From: Candidatus Limnocylindrus primus
GTDB taxonomy: Bacteria; Chloroflexota; Limnocylindria; Limnocylindrales; Limnocylindraceae
Direction of reading: 5' to 3'
Length of the DNA: 39,806 nucleotides
Assembly (NCBI GenBank): GCA_003670475.1
Contig: QWRJ01000001.1
Coordinates: 1-39,806 of the forward strand
Translations under genes and position numbers: made by a program
The notes under the pieces: model-generated
The model's database searches: none
The model's input: the letters and a program-made list of their open reading frames with translations, nothing else
Told to the model about the DNA's origin: nothing
Part shown: in pieces, positions 3,243-19,335 of the stretch
Layout: each line of letters starts with the position of its first letter
How positions within the stretch are numbered: the first letter of the stretch is position 1

Positions 3243-3599
3243 ATGACGTCGCACGCGATTGGTGGTCGCAAGCTCTCTCGAAAGCAGGGGCCCCGACTCG
3301 CCCTGTATAAGAACCTGATCGTCTCGGTCTTGCGCTACGAGCGCATCCAGACGACCGAGGCGAAGGCGAAGGAGATTCGTCCGCAGGTTGAGCAGATCAT
3401 CACGCTCGCCAAGAAGGGTGGCCTCAGCGCGCGCCGCGCGGTGATCGCCGCGCTCCCGAACGAGCCGCTCGTCGTGGATAAGCTTTTCGATGAGATCGTG
3501 CCAAAGTATGCGGACCGCACCTCTGGCTACTGCAGGATCACCAAGATCGGCATCCGCCAGGGTGACTCTTCGCCGCTCGTCCAGATTGAGCTCGTCTAG
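3243..3599 (+). CDS. rplQ: 50S ribosomal protein L17 (bL17)
   Basis: RKLSRKQGPRLALYKNLIVSVLRYERIQTTEAKAKEIRP. Confidence 0.96.
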   Translation: MTSHAIGGRKLSRKQGPRLALYKNLIVSVLRYERIQTTEAKAKEIRPQVEQIITLAKKGGLSARRAVIAALPNEPLVVDKLFDEIVPKYADRTSGYCRITKIGIRQGDSSPLVQIELV

Positions 3600-6278: not shown

Positions 6279-7505
6279 ATGGGAATTCCCGAGGCGCTTC
6301 TCGCCGCGGGACTGCCACCACTCGCCCGCGCCGCATGGGTCGAGGTCAGCCTTGATGCGATCGCGAACAATGTGCGCAGTCTGAAGGCGCGCCTTCCAGA
6401 GGGTGGCCACATTGATGTCGTGCTGAAGTCAAACGCCTATGGTCTTGGCGCCGTCCAGATCGCTCGTGCCTCCATCGCCGCTGGCGCGCGCGCCGTGCTG
6501 GTGGCGACCGTTGATGAGGCGATTCAGCTACGACGCGCAGGGATCAGCGCACCGCTCCGTGTCCTCTGGCGCGTGCCGAGCGAGTACCTGCGTGAAGCGG
6601 CGCAACTCGAGATCGGCGTCCCCGCAACTTCTCCCGCCGTCGTCACTGAACTCCTCGCTGCAGATCTTCATGGCCTGTCGCCACTGATCGTTGATGTGGA
6701 GGTTGATACGGGACTCGGTCGTGACGGCATCCTGCCTGACGAACTAGAAAAACAACTGACGCTACTGCGCGCCGCGAGCGATCGCATCACGCTCCGCGGC
6801 ATCTGGAGTCATCTCACCGCCGCAGAGGATGCCCCTCGATCTGAGCGACAGGCTGAACGACTGAACGAAGTGTCTGATCAGCTCGCCGATCCTGCAGCTG
6901 GTGGCCTCAGCGTGGGGCTCGAGCGACACCTCGTCGGCTCTGGCGGACTACTCACCATGGGTGGCACGCAGCACGTTGCGCGCGTGGGGATCGCCCTCTT
7001 CGGCGTGGTGCCGAATGCGCTGCGCTCCACCTCTTCTGCCGCTGACATTGGCCTTGCTTCGGTCTATCAGCTGATCGCCCGACCGATTCGAATCGCAACG
7101 CTTCCTGCGGGACACGGCGTGGGCTACGGCCCGCACTTCGTCGCAAAGCGTCCATCACGCATCATCACCCTGCCGATCGGCTATGCGGATGGAATCTCGT
7201 ACCACGACAAGGATCGCGCTGAGGTGCTCGTTCGTGGGGTGCGGCTTCCGGTGGTCGGCACGATCGCGATGGACTCGATCACGATTGACGCAACAGATCA
7301 CCCAGCGAAGGATCTCAGCCCGTTGGATGACGTCATTTTCATTGGTCGATCCGGCGACGAAGTGATTGAGCCAGTTGATGTTGCGCGTCGTCGCGAGACC
7401 ATCACCAATGAGGTCTCAACGAGCTTTACTAACCGACTTGCGCGTGTCTACACACGTGCTGGACTCCCAGTTGCGGTCGCCACGCTGATCGAGGCCACCC
7501 CATGA
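6279..7505 (+). CDS. alr: Alanine racemase
   Basis: AAWVEVSLDAIANNVRSLKARL...VVLKSNAYGLGAVQIA (PLP Lys); GIALFGVVP; LPIGYADGI. Confidence 0.94.
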   Translation: MGIPEALLAAGLPPLARAAWVEVSLDAIANNVRSLKARLPEGGHIDVVLKSNAYGLGAVQIARASIAAGARAVLVATVDEAIQLRRAGISAPLRVLWRVPSEYLREAAQLEIGVPATSPAVVTELLAADLHGLSPLIVDVEVDTGLGRDGILPDELEKQLTLLRAASDRITLRGIWSHLTAAEDAPRSERQAERLNEVSDQLADPAAGGLSVGLERHLVGSGGLLTMGGTQHVARVGIALFGVVPNALRSTSSAADIGLASVYQLIARPIRIATLPAGHGVGYGPHFVAKRPSRIITLPIGYADGISYHDKDRAEVLVRGVRLPVVGTIAMDSITIDATDHPAKDLSPLDDVIFIGRSGDEVIEPVDVARRRETITNEVSTSFTNRLARVYTRAGLPVAVATLIEATP

Positions 7506-7543
7506 TCAAGGCCACCCCATGATTACGGTCGCCCCATGAGCAA
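7493..7543 (+). repeat. Three tandem 17-bp units at the alr / 577-aa ORF junction, creating two 6-codon mini-ORFs
   Basis: GGCCACCCCATGATCAA (7493-7509), GGCCACCCCATGATTAC (7510-7526), GGTCGCCCCATGAGCAA (7527-7543). Each contains CCCCATGA. Confidence 0.9.
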
Positions 7544-9269
7544 GAGCCTGCGCGAGGGGACTGAGCTTCGCCACGCGGCGTCACTCCTGCTCTTGGTCGA
7601 AGGGCTCGACACGATCTCGGCCGCACTCGTGCGCGAGGGTGGAGGGAGTGAGGCACTGCTTAGCGCGCTTCGCGTTCCGCGTGGCGGTTCAATCGAGGCG
7701 CTTGGCGCGACGCTCGCCGCAAGCGCAGGTCTCTCGGGAGTGACAGAAGAGGTGCGGGGTGGTGCGGCGGAGGCTGCTGTCGCCGCTGGCCGCCTCGCAG
7801 AGCGTCTCGGCATTCCGATCCGCGTGGTTGAGGTGGAGGGTGATGCTTCGCGCATGCTGCTTGCGGGGACGGATCGCTCAGCACTCTCCTTTGAGGTGGC
7901 GGCGGCGGCACTCGTTCCGCTTGACCCTACCGAGCGACGACGGCGCGCGGATGGCGTCCTCGCCCTCCTTGGGCGCACCGATCGCTCCGCGATTAGTGAC
8001 GCACTCGGAGACCTTGCCGATGCGCCGCTTCGCGACCGAGACGATGAGCGCGAACAGATTCGTGCCGCGGCGACCGTCGATGCGCTGCGCCGACTCGGCG
8101 AGGCGCTCAGCGGAGAGGATTTCGGCGAGGCGGAGACGGATGCCGCACCACTCTTGGTCGTTGGGAGTGCCGCGAGCCTCATTGCAACCGGGGCGCTCCC
8201 GCTCACCGTCCTGGTCCCACTGATCGCTCCGGGGCGCACTAGGATCCTCCTTGAGCCGTATGGCGTCTTCGCAGCGCTCGGCGACAGCGGACTCGACGAC
8301 GAGCGCGCCGCATCGCTGCTCGGCTCACTCATGAGCGACCTGCTCCTCCCTGGCGGCGATCTCTTCCTGATTGACGGCGGCGCAGGAGACGAGGTGACCC
8401 TGCAGATCAACGGCGAGCCGCAGGTGCTCCTCCGCGGCAGTTCGCTCGTCCTTCCACTGCGGAGCGGGGAGTCAACTGAGGTGGAGATCAGTGCGAGTGA
8501 CCTGCAGCTGCGCACAGAGATGCACGGCGGGATCAGTCGCGCCGCGGTGGTCTTTGGCGATGCGCAGGTTGATCTGAGCCCCGATGCGCAGAACACGCTC
8601 TCGGCAGCAGCAGCTGCAGCGGTCGCCGCCGCACCCATCCCTGCGCCAATCCATCTTCTCCCAGTTGGTGGCGGTGCGACGGGGCATCGGAGCGCGCGCC
8701 TCCTCCTTGGTGACGCAGTAGAGGGCAACGTGCACTTCAGTGAAGCCGAACCGGATGCAGATGGTTGGGAGTCGGCACGTACCGCTGGGCTTCTCGCCAT
8801 CGTGCAGGCATCGCCAGAGACGGTGCTTCGCGCACGGGCTGTTGGTGTTCGTGGCGTGATCGTCTGCGGGCTGAGCGATGGCGAGCGTGATGCGCTCGCC
8901 GCCTCACTCGAGCGCCGCATTGCCGCAGCGGTTGCAACGGAACCGTTCGGACTCCTGATCATGACCTCGCGTCGAATGAGTGAGAGCGGCCAGAGTTCGG
9001 TCACTGCACTCCTTCGTAGCCTGCATGGTGGCCGCGTCACACTAAGTGCTGAGCCGATCGGCCTCTTGATGGCGAGCGCCTCAGTGCTCCGAGAGGCGAG
9101 CGCGGCGCAGGCTGGTGACGTGCGCGTCATCGGTGGTGCGTATGAGGGCACCTTCGGCACCTGGGAAGGCCTCGCTGATCCACGCGCGGATGATCCGCTT
9201 GGCGCGGTGCGGATTAACGGGGTCCTACGCGCAATCCCACTCGGTGATCTGCAGCGCATCACCGCGTGA
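7536..9269 (+). CDS. 577-aa protein; probable divergent MutL/GlmL-type (cobalamin-mutase-associated) protein
   Basis: Long ORF coupled to alr and tsaE. From memory of the family, LIATGALPLTVLVPLIAPGRTRILLEPYGVFAALGD and the C-terminal ARAVGVRGVIVCGLSD...VTALLRSLHGGRVTLSAEP...VRVIGGAYEGTFG resemble Chloroflexota GlmL/KOW-like proteins; not verified. Confidence 0.5.
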   Translation: MSKSLREGTELRHAASLLLLVEGLDTISAALVREGGGSEALLSALRVPRGGSIEALGATLAASAGLSGVTEEVRGGAAEAAVAAGRLAERLGIPIRVVEVEGDASRMLLAGTDRSALSFEVAAAALVPLDPTERRRRADGVLALLGRTDRSAISDALGDLADAPLRDRDDEREQIRAAATVDALRRLGEALSGEDFGEAETDAAPLLVVGSAASLIATGALPLTVLVPLIAPGRTRILLEPYGVFAALGDSGLDDERAASLLGSLMSDLLLPGGDLFLIDGGAGDEVTLQINGEPQVLLRGSSLVLPLRSGESTEVEISASDLQLRTEMHGGISRAAVVFGDAQVDLSPDAQNTLSAAAAAAVAAAPIPAPIHLLPVGGGATGHRSARLLLGDAVEGNVHFSEAEPDADGWESARTAGLLAIVQASPETVLRARAVGVRGVIVCGLSDGERDALAASLERRIAAAVATEPFGLLIMTSRRMSESGQSSVTALLRSLHGGRVTLSAEPIGLLMASASVLREASAAQAGDVRVIGGAYEGTFGTWEGLADPRADDPLGAVRINGVLRAIPLGDLQRITA

Positions 9270-10951: not shown

Positions 10952-12087
10952 GTCGCGAGCGGTTGATCCTTGCGGTTGAGTCGAGCTGCGATGAGTCGGC
11001 GGTCGCCCTGGTGCGCGACGGCGGCGAGGTGCTTGCCGAACGAATCGCGAGCCAGAGCGATCTGCACGCCGCGACTGGTGGTGTAATCCCCGAGGTTGCA
11101 GCGCGGGAGCATCACCGCTGGGTGCCAAAACTCATTGGCGAAGTGATGGCTGAGGCTGCAACCCTCGGCGTGGCGAACGAGATTGATGCTGTGGCGGTGA
11201 CAACGGGACCAGGCCTGATCGGCTCGCTCCTTGTTGGCGCGGGTTTTGCATCGGCGTGGGCGTGGGGGCGTGGCCTCCCGGTTGTTCCAACGAATCACCT
11301 TGAGGGGCACTTTCGCGCCGCGTGGCTGCGCAGCGCTGGTGCGTCAGCAGCGAGTGCGCCAACCCTTCCGGCGATCGGGCTGATCGTCTCTGGCGGGCAC
11401 ACGCTGCTGGTCCGTGTTGACACAGATGGGAGAACGGAACGGCTCGGCGGAACGATTGATGACGCTGCGGGCGAGGCCTTCGACAAGATTGCGCGACTCC
11501 TCGGGCTCCCGTATCCAGGGGGCGCCGCGCTCTCGGCGCTCGCCGCAGGTGCAGTGCGAGGGGGTGAGCTACCTGGCGGACTGCGGCGTCTCCCCATGGC
11601 GCAGACGGACGGTGAGTACGATCTCTCCTTTAGCGGCGTGAAGACGGCTGCGGCGCGCATGGCGCTCGCCGCGATCGGTGAACCCGCTGCGTCACCCGGT
11701 CGTGCTGCGGCACTAGCCGCAACACTCCGTGATCACCCAGTGCCCGCCGCCGCCGCTGCTGCCATAGCCGCCGCCGCGCAAGACGCGATCATCGCCGCAC
11801 TTGTCTCCCGCGTGGATCGTGCACTCGCCGCCACCCCTGGCGCCTCGCTCGTTGTTGGTGGTGGGGTTGCCGCTAACGTGCCGCTACGAGAAGCACTCGC
11901 CGCCGTTGCGGCACGTCACGGCCGCACGCTCAACGTTCCGCCAGTGCGCTGGTGCACCGATAATGCCGCCATGATCGGTGCCGCCGCACACGCCGCACTG
12001 CGCGAAGGGCGCGCGCAGTTGCAGGACCCCGCACGTGGCGTGAGCGTCGCCGCCTCCTGGCAGTTCGGAGCGGAGGCACCGGTATGA
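10948..12087 (+). CDS. tsaD: tRNA N6-adenosine threonylcarbamoyltransferase
   Basis: LAVESSCDESAVALV; GGVIPEVAAREHHR; GPGLIGSLLVG; NHLEGHF; LIVSGGHTLL; VVGGGVAANVPLR. Confidence 0.96.
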   Translation: MSRERLILAVESSCDESAVALVRDGGEVLAERIASQSDLHAATGGVIPEVAAREHHRWVPKLIGEVMAEAATLGVANEIDAVAVTTGPGLIGSLLVGAGFASAWAWGRGLPVVPTNHLEGHFRAAWLRSAGASAASAPTLPAIGLIVSGGHTLLVRVDTDGRTERLGGTIDDAAGEAFDKIARLLGLPYPGGAALSALAAGAVRGGELPGGLRRLPMAQTDGEYDLSFSGVKTAAARMALAAIGEPAASPGRAAALAATLRDHPVPAAAAAAIAAAAQDAIIAALVSRVDRALAATPGASLVVGGGVAANVPLREALAAVAARHGRTLNVPPVRWCTDNAAMIGAAAHAALREGRAQLQDPARGVSVAASWQFGAEAPV

Positions 12088-13988
12088 GCCCAACACCAGG
12101 CCGACCGGCGCGACGGGGGGCGCCGAGAGGCGCCGCGAAGGGGGTCGTGGAGGGGCATCTTGCCAAGCGACGGCTGAGCCAGAGCTTCCTTGTTGACCTT
12201 GAGGCGCGAGACGCGATCGTTGCCGCCGGTTCCGCAGCACACGGCGAGACGGTCCTTGAGATTGGACCAGGACTCGGCACGCTTACAGAGGGGTTGCTCG
12301 CAACAGGTGCACACGTCGTTGCGATTGAACTCGATGACGATCTGCTGCCGCGGCTCCAGGAGCGTTTCGCTGCGGAGATTGCCGCTGGTCAACTCACGCT
12401 CGTCCATGGTGATGCACTGAATGTGGACCTTGAGCCACTCCTTCCAGCGAGTGGTGGCTGGCGCGTCATCGCGAACATCCCGTATCACATCACCAGTCCG
12501 CTCCTGCATCGGCTCCTGCTGCTGCCGAATCCGGCACAACGAATCGTGCTGCTCGTTCAGCGTGAGGTTGCGGAACGGATCGCGGCAGAGGTGGGCGACT
12601 GGTCGTATCTCACCGCATTTGTCCGCGCACGTGTGGAGGCAACGATTGTGCGCACGGTGCGACGTGAGTCGTTTGATCCGATCCCAGCGGTTGACTCAGC
12701 GGTGCTTGTCCTTGATCGGCTCTCCGCCGATGCGGCGCTGAGCCTCTCGGAGGAGGATGAGGAGCAGCTCTGGCGACTGGTGCAGGCGGGCTTCCGCGAG
12801 CGACGGAAGAAGCTGCGCAACGCGCTGCCGCGTGCACTCCCAACCCCTGTTGATCAGGTGATGGCGGCGCTGGATCGTTCGGATATCGATCCAGACCTCC
12901 GCGCCCAGGCGCTCGGCGTGGAGGAGTGGGTGCGGCTACTGCGCGCACTTGGAGGCATTCCAGGTGCGCCGACGCGTGCGCCTCGCATGATGCGCACCGA
13001 GCCTGGCGAGGCGCCGACACGGCGTACACGCGTTGGCGCAGGACGCGTGAACTGGGTGGAACTTGATGCGCCAGGGAAGGTGAACCTCACGCTCGCCGTG
13101 CTCGGCCAACGCAGCGACGGCTATCACAACCTGCACTCGGTTGTGGCACCGCTCCGTCTCGCTGATCACCTCACGCTGCGGCTCCGTTCAGCGGGGGAGA
13201 GTGAGGACGAGCTGCACTGCGCTGGGCTCCCAATTCCCGGGACGGCGGAGAATCTGATTTATGTTGCGCTGCGTGAACTGCGCGCCGCACTTGGACCAGG
13301 GGCGCCGCTCCCGCCCCTCTCCGTCGTTCTGGAGAAGCGCCTCCCCGTTGCCGCAGGTCTCGGTGGTGGATCAAGCGATGCGGCGGCTGCGCTGCGTGGC
13401 GCGCTGCAACTCTGCAACCTGAAGATGGAGCCGCGTCAACTAATGGAGGTTGCGGCACGGATCGGTTCCGATGTTCCACTCTTCCTCCCCGAAGGTCCGG
13501 TGCTGATGGAGGGGCGTGGCGAAGAGATCACGCCGCTCACGCGATGGTCAGAGCCGACCCCTGGTGTCCTGCTGGTGAGTGCCAGCGAAGGGATCAAGAC
13601 CCCCGACGTGTTCGCCGCGTTCGCTGGCGGGATTCGTGGTGAGTCGTATGGTGCGGCGCTGGTCAGCTCGCAGCACCTGGCGCAGGAGTTGACCACTGGG
13701 CTCTCAACGGCGGAGCTGCTGTTGCGCTCCTCCACGCTCGCCTCGGCGAACGACCTGCTCGCCCCTGCGCGTGCGATCACGCCATGGCTCAGGCCGCTCG
13801 ATCACGCCCTGCGCCGCGTGCTTGGACAACCCCTCTCGCTCTCAGGATCGGGGCCAACCCTCTTCCTCCTCTATCCTTCGCTCTACGATGCTTCAGCGGC
13901 TGGAGCGCTGCTCGAGGCGGCGGTTGCCCGCGGTGAGCTGGAGCTACCGCCAGGTGGCGTGACGATCACTGCGACAGAGTTGGCATAG
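12084..13988 (+). CDS. rsmA-ispE: Fused 16S rRNA dimethyladenosine transferase (RsmA/KsgA) - CDP-ME kinase (IspE)
   Basis: Single 634-aa frame: N-terminal LAKRRLSQSFLVD...VLEIGPGLGTLTEGL...NIPYHITSPLLHRLL; C-terminal DAPGKVNLTLAVLGQRSDGYHNLHSVV...LPVAAGLGGGSSDAAAALR...LSGSGPTLFLL. Confidence 0.92.
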   Translation: MSPTPGRPARRGAPRGAAKGVVEGHLAKRRLSQSFLVDLEARDAIVAAGSAAHGETVLEIGPGLGTLTEGLLATGAHVVAIELDDDLLPRLQERFAAEIAAGQLTLVHGDALNVDLEPLLPASGGWRVIANIPYHITSPLLHRLLLLPNPAQRIVLLVQREVAERIAAEVGDWSYLTAFVRARVEATIVRTVRRESFDPIPAVDSAVLVLDRLSADAALSLSEEDEEQLWRLVQAGFRERRKKLRNALPRALPTPVDQVMAALDRSDIDPDLRAQALGVEEWVRLLRALGGIPGAPTRAPRMMRTEPGEAPTRRTRVGAGRVNWVELDAPGKVNLTLAVLGQRSDGYHNLHSVVAPLRLADHLTLRLRSAGESEDELHCAGLPIPGTAENLIYVALRELRAALGPGAPLPPLSVVLEKRLPVAAGLGGGSSDAAAALRGALQLCNLKMEPRQLMEVAARIGSDVPLFLPEGPVLMEGRGEEITPLTRWSEPTPGVLLVSASEGIKTPDVFAAFAGGIRGESYGAALVSSQHLAQELTTGLSTAELLLRSSTLASANDLLAPARAITPWLRPLDHALRRVLGQPLSLSGSGPTLFLLYPSLYDASAAGALLEAAVARGELELPPGGVTITATELA

Positions 13989-17129: not shown

Positions 17130-18172
17130 ATGACGCGCGTCAGGATCTCTTCTAGTCGCTCGATCGCTCGCGGGTTCATCGCCTTCACGCTGTGGATCTC
17201 CTTCAGGGCGCGCTCACGCCAGATCGCCGCCTGCTCACGCGTGTAGGCCTCAGCGCCTGTGCGCTCAAGCACGGCGAGTCCAGCCGCAATGAGTGCCGCG
17301 TCAGGGTTCGGCGTGGAGAAGAGTCGGTCGAGCGTCCCGCGATCTTCGGTGTTGGCGTGCTCCGCCGCGTAGAGGACGGGGAGCGTCTTCTTATGACGCG
17401 CTAGGTCTGACGGCTCTTTCCCTGTTGCCGCCTCGTTCCCCCAGATGCCGAGGAGATCATCATTGATCTGGAAGGCGAGCCCCAACGCCCAACCGAAGGC
17501 ACGGAAGCGAGCAATCACCTCGTTGTCATCGGTTGCAAGCACCGCCGCTGACTCAACGCCGCCAGAGATGAGTGCAGCGGTCTTGCGGCCGATCATCTCG
17601 AAGTAGTGCTCCACGCTCTGCATTTCGTTCTTCTGGCTTGCGGCAATATCAATGAACTGACCTTCGCAGAGGCGGAGGCAGGTCTCGTCATAGATCTTCA
17701 TCATGCGGATCACCTTTGCGTCGGAGAAGCCGAGCGCGCTCAGGCGGTGCGTCGCGACGCGGCTGATGGTGAAGAGGGCGTCACCCGTGTTGATGGCATG
17801 GGGGATCCCCTCACGCACCCAGAGGGTGGGTCGTCCACGGCGCTCTGCGTCGCTGTCTTCGATGTCGTCATGCACCAAGCTGAAGTTATGGCCGAGCTCA
17901 ACGGCTGCGGCTCCAGGGATGGCGCGCTCCCAGTCGCTGGAGAGCGATGCGTAGGTGAGCAGCCCGAGGAGTGGCCGCATTCGCTTCCCAAGCCGTGCGG
18001 TCGGATCGCCGTAGCCCATGTGATAGCGGATCTGGTCGTACATGTTTGCGGTGATCGGCTCCTCCCACTCCGCGAAGAGCGCAAGGATCGCCTTGTCTGT
18101 TGCGGCGATGAGCACGTCAAGATCTAGCTCGAGCAGGTTCGCGCCAGAGGGTGTGCCCCGTAACTCCGTCAT
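17120..18172 (-). CDS. Polyprenyl/geranylgeranyl diphosphate synthase
   Basis: FSLVHDDIEDSDAERRGRPTLW (DDxxD) and FQINDDLLGIWG. Confidence 0.92.
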   Translation of the reverse strand: MTELRGTPSGANLLELDLDVLIAATDKAILALFAEWEEPITANMYDQIRYHMGYGDPTARLGKRMRPLLGLLTYASLSSDWERAIPGAAAVELGHNFSLVHDDIEDSDAERRGRPTLWVREGIPHAINTGDALFTISRVATHRLSALGFSDAKVIRMMKIYDETCLRLCEGQFIDIAASQKNEMQSVEHYFEMIGRKTAALISGGVESAAVLATDDNEVIARFRAFGWALGLAFQINDDLLGIWGNEAATGKEPSDLARHKKTLPVLYAAEHANTEDRGTLDRLFSTPNPDAALIAAGLAVLERTGAEAYTREQAAIWRERALKEIHSVKAMNPRAIERLEEILTRVISA

Positions 18173-18179
18173 ACCCCAA

Positions 18180-18188
18180 TGCTACCCT
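18180..18188 (+). promoter_or_regulatory. Extended -10 TGcTACCCT upstream of recO, implying a near-leaderless transcript
   Basis: Last T of the -10 is 6 nt before the recO ATG (18195). Confidence 0.4.
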
Positions 18189-18194
18189 GACCCC

Positions 18195-18941
18195 ATGCCT
18201 GAACGCCGAACCTCACGGACGCTGGCGGTTGTGACCTCCCGATTTCGATTAGGTGAGGCGGATCGCGTCCTTACCCTCCTCTCGCCGGATCGCGGCAAGT
18301 TCAAGGCGATCGCGAAGGGGGTGCGTAAGCCAACGAGTCGGCTCGGTGGCGGCGTGGAGCCGTTCGCCGAACTTGAGGTTGCGCTCGCCGCCGGTCGCAC
18401 CTTCGACATCGTGACGCAGGTGCAGTCGCGTCGCGTCTGGCTCGGGCTCCGCGAACGGCTAAAGAGCAGCGCCGTCGCCTGGTACGCGGCGGAGCTCGTT
18501 GAGCGCGCCACCAGTGAAGAGCAGCCTGAGCCGCAACTCTACGAGCTCCTCATCCACGCCTGGGATCTCCTTGAAGCGGGCGCCTCCGATGAGCTCGTTG
18601 CGCGCTGGGTTGAGCTCGGACTTCTTGATGCGGCAGGACACGGCCCCGAGCTTGATCAGTGTCTTGATTGCGGGCGCGCGCCAGTTGAGGGGGAGGGTCT
18701 GCGCTGGGATGAGGTGGCGGGCGGTATCCGTTGTGCAGCACATGGTGAGGGGCTTCCGCTTAGTAGTGATGCGCTGCGCCTCCTGCGCGCGCTGCGACGC
18801 TTCCCCCCAGAGCAACTCACTCAACTTCGTCTCCCCACAGGACCACTCGCGGAGGCGGATCGCGCCCTCCGTGGCTCTATCCTGTTGCTCTACGGACATG
18901 AGCCGAAGAGTCGAAGCTTCCTTGATGAGGTGATGGCATGA
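18195..18941 (+). CDS. recO: DNA repair protein RecO
   Basis: RTLAVVTSRFRLGEADRVLTLLSPDRGKFKAIAKGVRKPTSRLGG; Cys motif LDQCLDCGRAP...IRCAAH. Confidence 0.93.
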   Translation: MPERRTSRTLAVVTSRFRLGEADRVLTLLSPDRGKFKAIAKGVRKPTSRLGGGVEPFAELEVALAAGRTFDIVTQVQSRRVWLGLRERLKSSAVAWYAAELVERATSEEQPEPQLYELLIHAWDLLEAGASDELVARWVELGLLDAAGHGPELDQCLDCGRAPVEGEGLRWDEVAGGIRCAAHGEGLPLSSDALRLLRALRRFPPEQLTQLRLPTGPLAEADRALRGSILLLYGHEPKSRSFLDEVMA

Positions 18942-18960
18942 GTGAGGTGGCGGCATGAAC
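18927..18960 (+). repeat. Two tandem 17-bp units at the recO/crcB junction, creating one 6-codon mini-ORF
   Basis: GAGGTGATGGCATGAGT (18927-18943) and GAGGTGGCGGCATGAAC (18944-18960); 13/17 identical. Confidence 0.8.
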
Positions 18961-19335
18961 AGCGTGAGCGATCTACTCCTCGTGGCGTTCGGTGGCGGTG
19001 CTGGCGCGCTGCTGCGCGGTGGTATCGACACGCTCGCGACACGCTTCGGTCTTGCGGCACCACTCGCCACACTCTCCATCAACCTCCTCGGCTCCTTCTT
19101 CGCTGGCCTCGTTGCTGTGCTGCTGATCGATCGCAGCCTTCTCCCTGAGGCGGCGCGACCACTCCTCCTGATCGGCCTACTCGGTGGCTTCACCACCTTC
19201 TCCACCTTTGCGCTGCAGCTCGCACGGATGAGCGACGCAGGGGAGGCGCTTCCGCTCCTCGCCTATGCGGCGGGGTCGCTCCTTCTCGGGTTCGCCGCTG
19301 CTGTTGCGGGGATCGCTCTCGGGCGTGCCCTCTAG
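18955..19335 (+). CDS. crcB: Fluoride channel CrcB/Fluc
   Basis: GGGAGALLRGGIDTLA; TLSINLLGSFFAGL; LLGGFTTFSTFALQ. Confidence 0.93.
   Translation: MNSVSDLLLVAFGGGAGALLRGGIDTLATRFGLAAPLATLSINLLGSFFAGLVAVLLIDRSLLPEAARPLLLIGLLGGFTTFSTFALQLARMSDAGEALPLLAYAAGSLLLGFAAAVAGIALGRAL

Follow-up and report, generated by a model that had tools for sequence, protein, structure and literature searches.

The alanine racemase gene alr and the 577-aa ORF that follows it are separated by 30 nt in the stretch of DNA analyzed here (39,806 nt, hereafter the window), and this interval is filled by a short tandem repeat in which stop and start codons overlap. The locus raises the question of how such an array arose and by which route ribosomes reach the downstream gene. 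We consider it fairly likely that two successive 17-bp duplications of the alr/577-aa ORF junction made a ribosome relay, whose translation and coupling we infer from the sequence.

Structure of the alr junction array

The alr gene (6279–7505, plus strand; Pfam Ala_racemase_N, 3.8e-43, and Ala_racemase_C, 1.4e-31) ends with a TGA at 7503–7505, which is overlapped by an ATG at 7502. By direct reading, the region is CTGATCGAGGCCACCCC ATGA TCAAGGCCACCCC ATGA TTACGGTCGCCCC ATGA GCAAG, and CCCCATGA is present three times (7498–7505, 7515–7522, and 7532–7539). Tandem Repeats Finder reported an array of period 17 with 3.5 copies at 7486–7544 on the plus strand, and its score of 76 was the top value among the 30 rows for the window. 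Three 17-bp units extend over 7486–7536, and a partial fourth reaches 7544. The first-pass annotation had placed the array at 7493–7543; the array itself was recovered, and its start lies 7 bp earlier. In our own scan, the array scored 22, compared to a best value of 14 in 40 dinucleotide-preserving shuffles of the whole window.

Unit 1 (TGATCGAGGCCACCCCA, 7486–7502, plus strand) encodes the alr C-terminus, and is followed on the same strand by unit 2 (TGATCAAGGCCACCCCA, 7503–7519) and unit 3 (TGATTACGGTCGCCCCA, 7520–7536). Of the 17 bases, a single one distinguishes unit 1 from unit 2, and four distinguish unit 2 from unit 3. Since the units have diverged in sequence, the array is no exact assembly stutter, and the unequal mismatches fit one old and one recent duplication.

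Two mini-ORFs are formed by the array, both on the plus strand and both with an ATGA overlap at each end. The stop of mini-ORF 1, MIKATP* (7502–7522), overlaps the ATG at 7519, and the stop of mini-ORF 2, MITVAP* (7519–7539), overlaps the ATG at 7536, the start of the 577-aa ORF. The 4-nt stop/start overlap that marks coupled gene pairs therefore occurs at 7502, 7519, and 7536 by way of the mini-ORFs. The reading frames of alr, the two mini-ORFs, and the 577-aa ORF are 0, 2, 1, and 0, so the chain comes back to the alr frame. The 17-bp ATGA relay with two six-codon mini-ORFs, as described in the first-pass annotation, was borne out by this reading, and so was its arithmetic that a unit length of 2 mod 3 preserves the relay.

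The 577-aa ORF (7536–9269, plus strand) most likely starts at 7536, because its predicted N-terminus, MSKSLREGTELRHAA, matches that of an 89% identical relative, MSENLREGTELRHAA, despite several synonymous codon changes. It gave no Pfam, NCBIfam, or PDB-sequence match. Relatives with 41–89% identity were found in most of the genus, located between alr and tsaE. Its AlphaFold2 model (pLDDT 82) matches ASKHA-type ATPase structures with TM-scores of 0.14–0.25 of the query, a weak resemblance that hints at an actin-like ATPase fold. The gene order is alr, the 577-aa ORF, tsaE, tsaB, a GNAT acetyltransferase gene, and tsaD. By ORF coordinates, −4 borders join the 577-aa ORF, whose TGA overlaps the GTG of tsaE, to tsaE (9266/9269), tsaB to the GNAT gene (10376/10379), the GNAT gene to tsaD (10948/10951), and tsaD to the next gene (12084/12087). 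In contrast to these neighboring borders, the alr border is the one pushed apart. Beyond tsaD, a 634-aa ORF (12084–13988) combines, in a single frame, a KsgA/RsmA-type rRNA dimethylase with the N-terminal domain of a GHMP kinase.

Copy number of the unit in related genomes

The comparison drew on 19 genomes of the genus, in which the window genome is G000. The nearest relative, G017 (an uncultured Chloroflexi MAG, contig CAJARA010000026), has an 89% identical ORF. Its alr junction reads GAGGCCACCCC ATGA TTACGGTTGCCCG ATGA, with two units and a single mini-ORF, MITVAR*, which differs from MITVAP* by one residue (P to R). Unit 2 of the window is the one missing in G017, and unit 3 is common to both genomes. 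In G009 and G013, in which the ORF is about 60% identical, alr ends at the same residue and the downstream frame begins with a GTGA. A plain ATGA or GTGA overlap is present in most of the other members of the genus. The variation in 17-nt steps that the first-pass annotation had proposed to look for was thus found, with three units in the window genome, two in G017, and one elsewhere.

The alr duplication is carried by two genomes only. Among the junctions shared with the compared part of G017 (182 of 559), the alr step was the only border indel of 17 bp. The alr junction was not recovered from G005, G008, and G016, which leaves G017 as the only genome that dates the second duplication.

Similar duplications at other gene junctions

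A further 17-bp tandem duplication across a stop/start junction lies at 18926–18958 (plus strand; Tandem Repeats Finder score 52, the second highest in the window) and was absent from the first-pass annotation. It joins recO (18042–18941, plus strand; Pfam RecO_C, 1.2e-26) to crcB (18955–19335, plus strand; Pfam CRCB, 4.8e-23) through the mini-ORF MSEVAA* (18938–18958, plus strand), which has ATGA overlaps with the recO stop and the crcB start. Both copies contain GAGG (−6.9 and −9.0 kcal/mol). The relay with MSEVAA* is kept in three genomes, namely the window genome, G016, and G017, and in the other genus members with recO adjoining crcB, the two genes overlap directly.

At the split cytochrome-b junction (contig C31), a 17-nt relay was found in seven genomes with differing peptides and starts: MSEAQR* in G000, G008, G016, and G017, MSGARR* in G009 and G013, and VIEGRR* from a GTG in G005. 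The relay of G004 is 35 nt long with 12 codons, which is also 2 mod 3, and the other clade has 3–6 nt gaps without a relay. The peptide varies at this junction, and the frame and both overlaps are kept. This constancy could be due in part to a conserved Shine-Dalgarno spacing. In the window genome, the cytochrome-b operon (minus strand of C31, locus L092) has two successive relays, MSEAQR* and then VMGAH*, which ends in TGATG.

A private 17-bp duplication producing MKRAQR* was found at a trmH-like/dmpA-like junction of G008 (contig C53), where G000 has a direct ATGA. In other cases the downstream N-terminus was lengthened in frame, by 15-bp duplications on C34 and on G017 contig C44 and by a 12-bp insertion at C3. 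The C44 duplication (L170, junction near 3451) spans a GTGA overlap. At start-overlapping borders of this clade, the events comprised five of 17 bp, two of 15 bp, and one of 12 bp, and none was 1 mod 3; this lack among eight events is suggestive only, as it was partly ascertained through searches specific for 17 and 16.

Several candidates were rejected. A 16-bp case on contig C96 of G008 was discarded, since its upstream gene extends to the second ATGA and terminates there. MKRSR*, seen in four species, is not a mini-ORF and corresponds to DEFDEEEPM of a longer protein, and other conserved ATGA-spacer-ATGA matches read best as one long frame. Counts of this pattern across the genus were not used, since the matches lie mostly inside coding genes.

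The same events allow a neutral explanation to be weighed, in which replication slippage duplicated the junction, the mini-ORFs arose incidentally, and ribosomes reach the downstream gene by initiating independently or by scanning over a short range. Neither protein is altered by a duplication across the junction, which can therefore drift. Tandem duplications of 13–18 bp also occur at other stops of the window genome, lengths of 13 and 16 included, and the restriction of the alr case to two genomes agrees with drift. The frame bias is weak as well. Among G000 pairs separated by 4–31 nt, in which the stop is start-like and the downstream start is xTGA, spacings of 2, 1, and 0 mod 3 numbered 10, 4, and 4. 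Compared with other stops, this was a trend only (10 vs. 4) without significance (Fisher p = 0.15), and a genome-wide frame preference is not claimed. Against neutrality, no 1-mod-3 duplication was found at a start-overlapping junction of this clade, and the cytochrome-b relay keeps its frame despite a changing peptide. Neutral duplication is possible in our judgment, but we doubt it.

Junction duplications in viral contigs

Viral contigs were scanned for two GGAG-N6-ATGA modules, and the matches were classed by open frames on both sides. Border-type cases numbered seven at a distance (L) of 14, four each at 15, 16, and 17, seven at 18, none at 19, three at 20, and one at 22. The excess of L = 14, 17, and 20 over L = 16, 19, and 22 (14 vs. 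5 cases) is confounded by the greater frequency of short distances and by the differing composition of the L = 14 pattern.

One phage contig (IMGVR_UViG_3300010376_000007) carries a three-start relay with a 14-bp unit (L440). A 242-codon frame, which by eye we take to be of Rpf/transglycosylase type, ends on the first ATG and is followed by MRRCR*, a second MRRCR*, and a 58-aa ORF. This relay is an independent case and a close parallel to the alr relay. Duplications with L = 16 (1 mod 3) were also present at phage junctions; therefore, duplications that break the frame are tolerated at least on occasion. As a tentative generalization, junction duplication may be a recurrent route to mini-cistron chains in bacteria and phages, with selection for coupling keeping units of 2 or 0 mod 3 (relay or N-terminal extension) and removing those of 1 mod 3. 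In that case, copy number would tune the ratio of neighboring operon proteins.

Initiation signals and the proposed relay

Unit 1 contains GAGG at 7491–7494, 7 nt upstream of the ATG at 7502 (duplex −5.9 kcal/mol), and unit 2 contains AAGG at 7508–7511, 7 nt upstream of the ATG at 7519 (−2.8 kcal/mol). No Shine-Dalgarno sequence was found in unit 3 upstream of the ATG at 7536, where the value of −2.4 kcal/mol is close to the random median of −2.3. This start argues against independent initiation as the neutral explanation would have it. Sequence matching gave no promoter or terminator around the junction (7300–7700), and the RNA structure around the array was unremarkable (z = −0.47).

The GAGG-N7-ATG of unit 1, the GAGG in both recO-crcB copies, and the Shine-Dalgarno-ATG arrangement that the viral search found at real gene junctions would also suit a duplicated ribosome-binding module, whose extra copies raise de novo initiation and whose mini-ORFs are ordinary leader cistrons. 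At alr, however, Shine-Dalgarno strength declines from unit 1 to unit 3, so that the real gene obtained no better start, which makes this explanation improbable. Stop readthrough deserves hardly any credence: alr and the 577-aa ORF share a frame, and the alr stop is the only one between them, so UGA readthrough would fuse them through the linker SRPPHDYGRPM, but G017 with its one unit less has differing frames, and in close relatives the C-terminus of alr lies at the same position.

For the favored relay by duplication, the ancestral alr junction was most likely a direct NTGA overlap. A first duplication, predating the divergence from G017, would have made one mini-cistron, and a second, in the window lineage only, would have added another. 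Since a unit of 17 bp is 2 mod 3, every copy forms an ORF of six codons whose start overlaps the preceding stop and whose stop overlaps the following start. Ribosomes finishing alr would meet the overlapping start at once and pass through MIKATP and MITVAP to the 577-aa protein; the 4-nt coupling would thereby survive the 30-nt separation, and the peptides would need no function. As a general rule, a short tandem duplication of a stop/start junction would produce a mini-cistron relay wherever the unit is 2 mod 3.

The mini-ORFs probably hand ribosomes from alr to the 577-aa ORF in this manner, provided that they are translated as predicted. The ATG at 7502 is nearest to the alr stop and has GAGG at 7 nt (compare the weak 7536), so a terminating ribosome would be expected to enter mini-ORF 1. 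The start at 7536 is almost without a Shine-Dalgarno of its own, which makes passage through the mini-ORFs the likeliest route to the 577-aa ORF. In a phage coat-lysis pair, scanning ribosomes used the start closest to the upstream stop (PMC12548453). A spacing of about 20 nt almost abolished coupling in six native pairs (PMC10666635), and an added 13 nt abolished it in one E. coli construct (PMC12548453). In some studies little coupling was lost at +25 nt (PMC12548453), so the relay may be unnecessary. This last point, the non-significant frame bias, and the phage duplications of L = 16 limit the relay reading; the 3/2/1 copy number, the other junctions, and the independent phage case strengthen it.

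Translational coupling is expected to weaken as the gap between two coupled genes widens. A 2-mod-3 duplication across an NTGA border would part the genes without breaking the coupling, and such duplications create six-codon genes that annotation skips. The junctions with 0, 1, and 2 mini-ORFs form a natural series for asking whether ribosomes pass several reinitiation events, and unit length mod 3 offers a counting test for coupling as a selected trait.

Comparison with known systems

The first-pass annotation had called a duplicated coupling module unusual. This judgment should be tempered: small −4-coupled ORFs are already known from MIRUs (PMC12548453), and about ten single mini-ORF relays occur in the window genome. 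The nearest precedent is the MIRUs between senX3 and regX3 of Mycobacterium tuberculosis. There, the repeat was inserted at a start codon and brings along a small ORF with −4 coupling (PMC12548453), the number of tandem copies is variable (PMC9392950), and the units are 77 and 53 bp long (PMC4213456). Both of these lengths are 2 mod 3. The alr array likewise has small ORFs, −4 overlaps, a tandem arrangement, and a variable copy number. Unlike MIRUs, which are long, dispersed, and apparently mobile, the alr unit is 17 bp and was derived locally from the junction. The units at alr, recO-crcB, cytochrome-b, and G008 C53 differ in sequence, each copied from its own junction, and do not form a dispersed repeat.

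In uORF systems, the ORFs lie before a gene, whereas here a tandem pair lies between two operon genes. As cited in PMC12548453, the work of Shell et al. 2015 on bacterial uORF coupling proposes that a short ORF drives the downstream gene, and the proposal for alr is similar in this respect. Each relay junction is also a standard −4 overlap, as in termination-reinitiation at ATGA/TGATG overlaps (PMC6728339, PMC10666635), but those are direct overlaps of two full genes and here two mini-ORFs are placed between the genes. In engineered bicistronic designs (PMC12548453), a short ORF beside the target start delivers ribosomes, as it would here. The Shine-Dalgarno of the target lies inside the short ORF for crcB (−9.0 kcal/mol) and not for the 577-aa ORF (−2.4 kcal/mol). 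In contrast to these designs, in which the short ORF is placed after a promoter, the alr relay is natural and tandem and would receive its ribosomes from an upstream gene. The alr relay is a variation on a known coupling principle, with a recurrent and testable origin.
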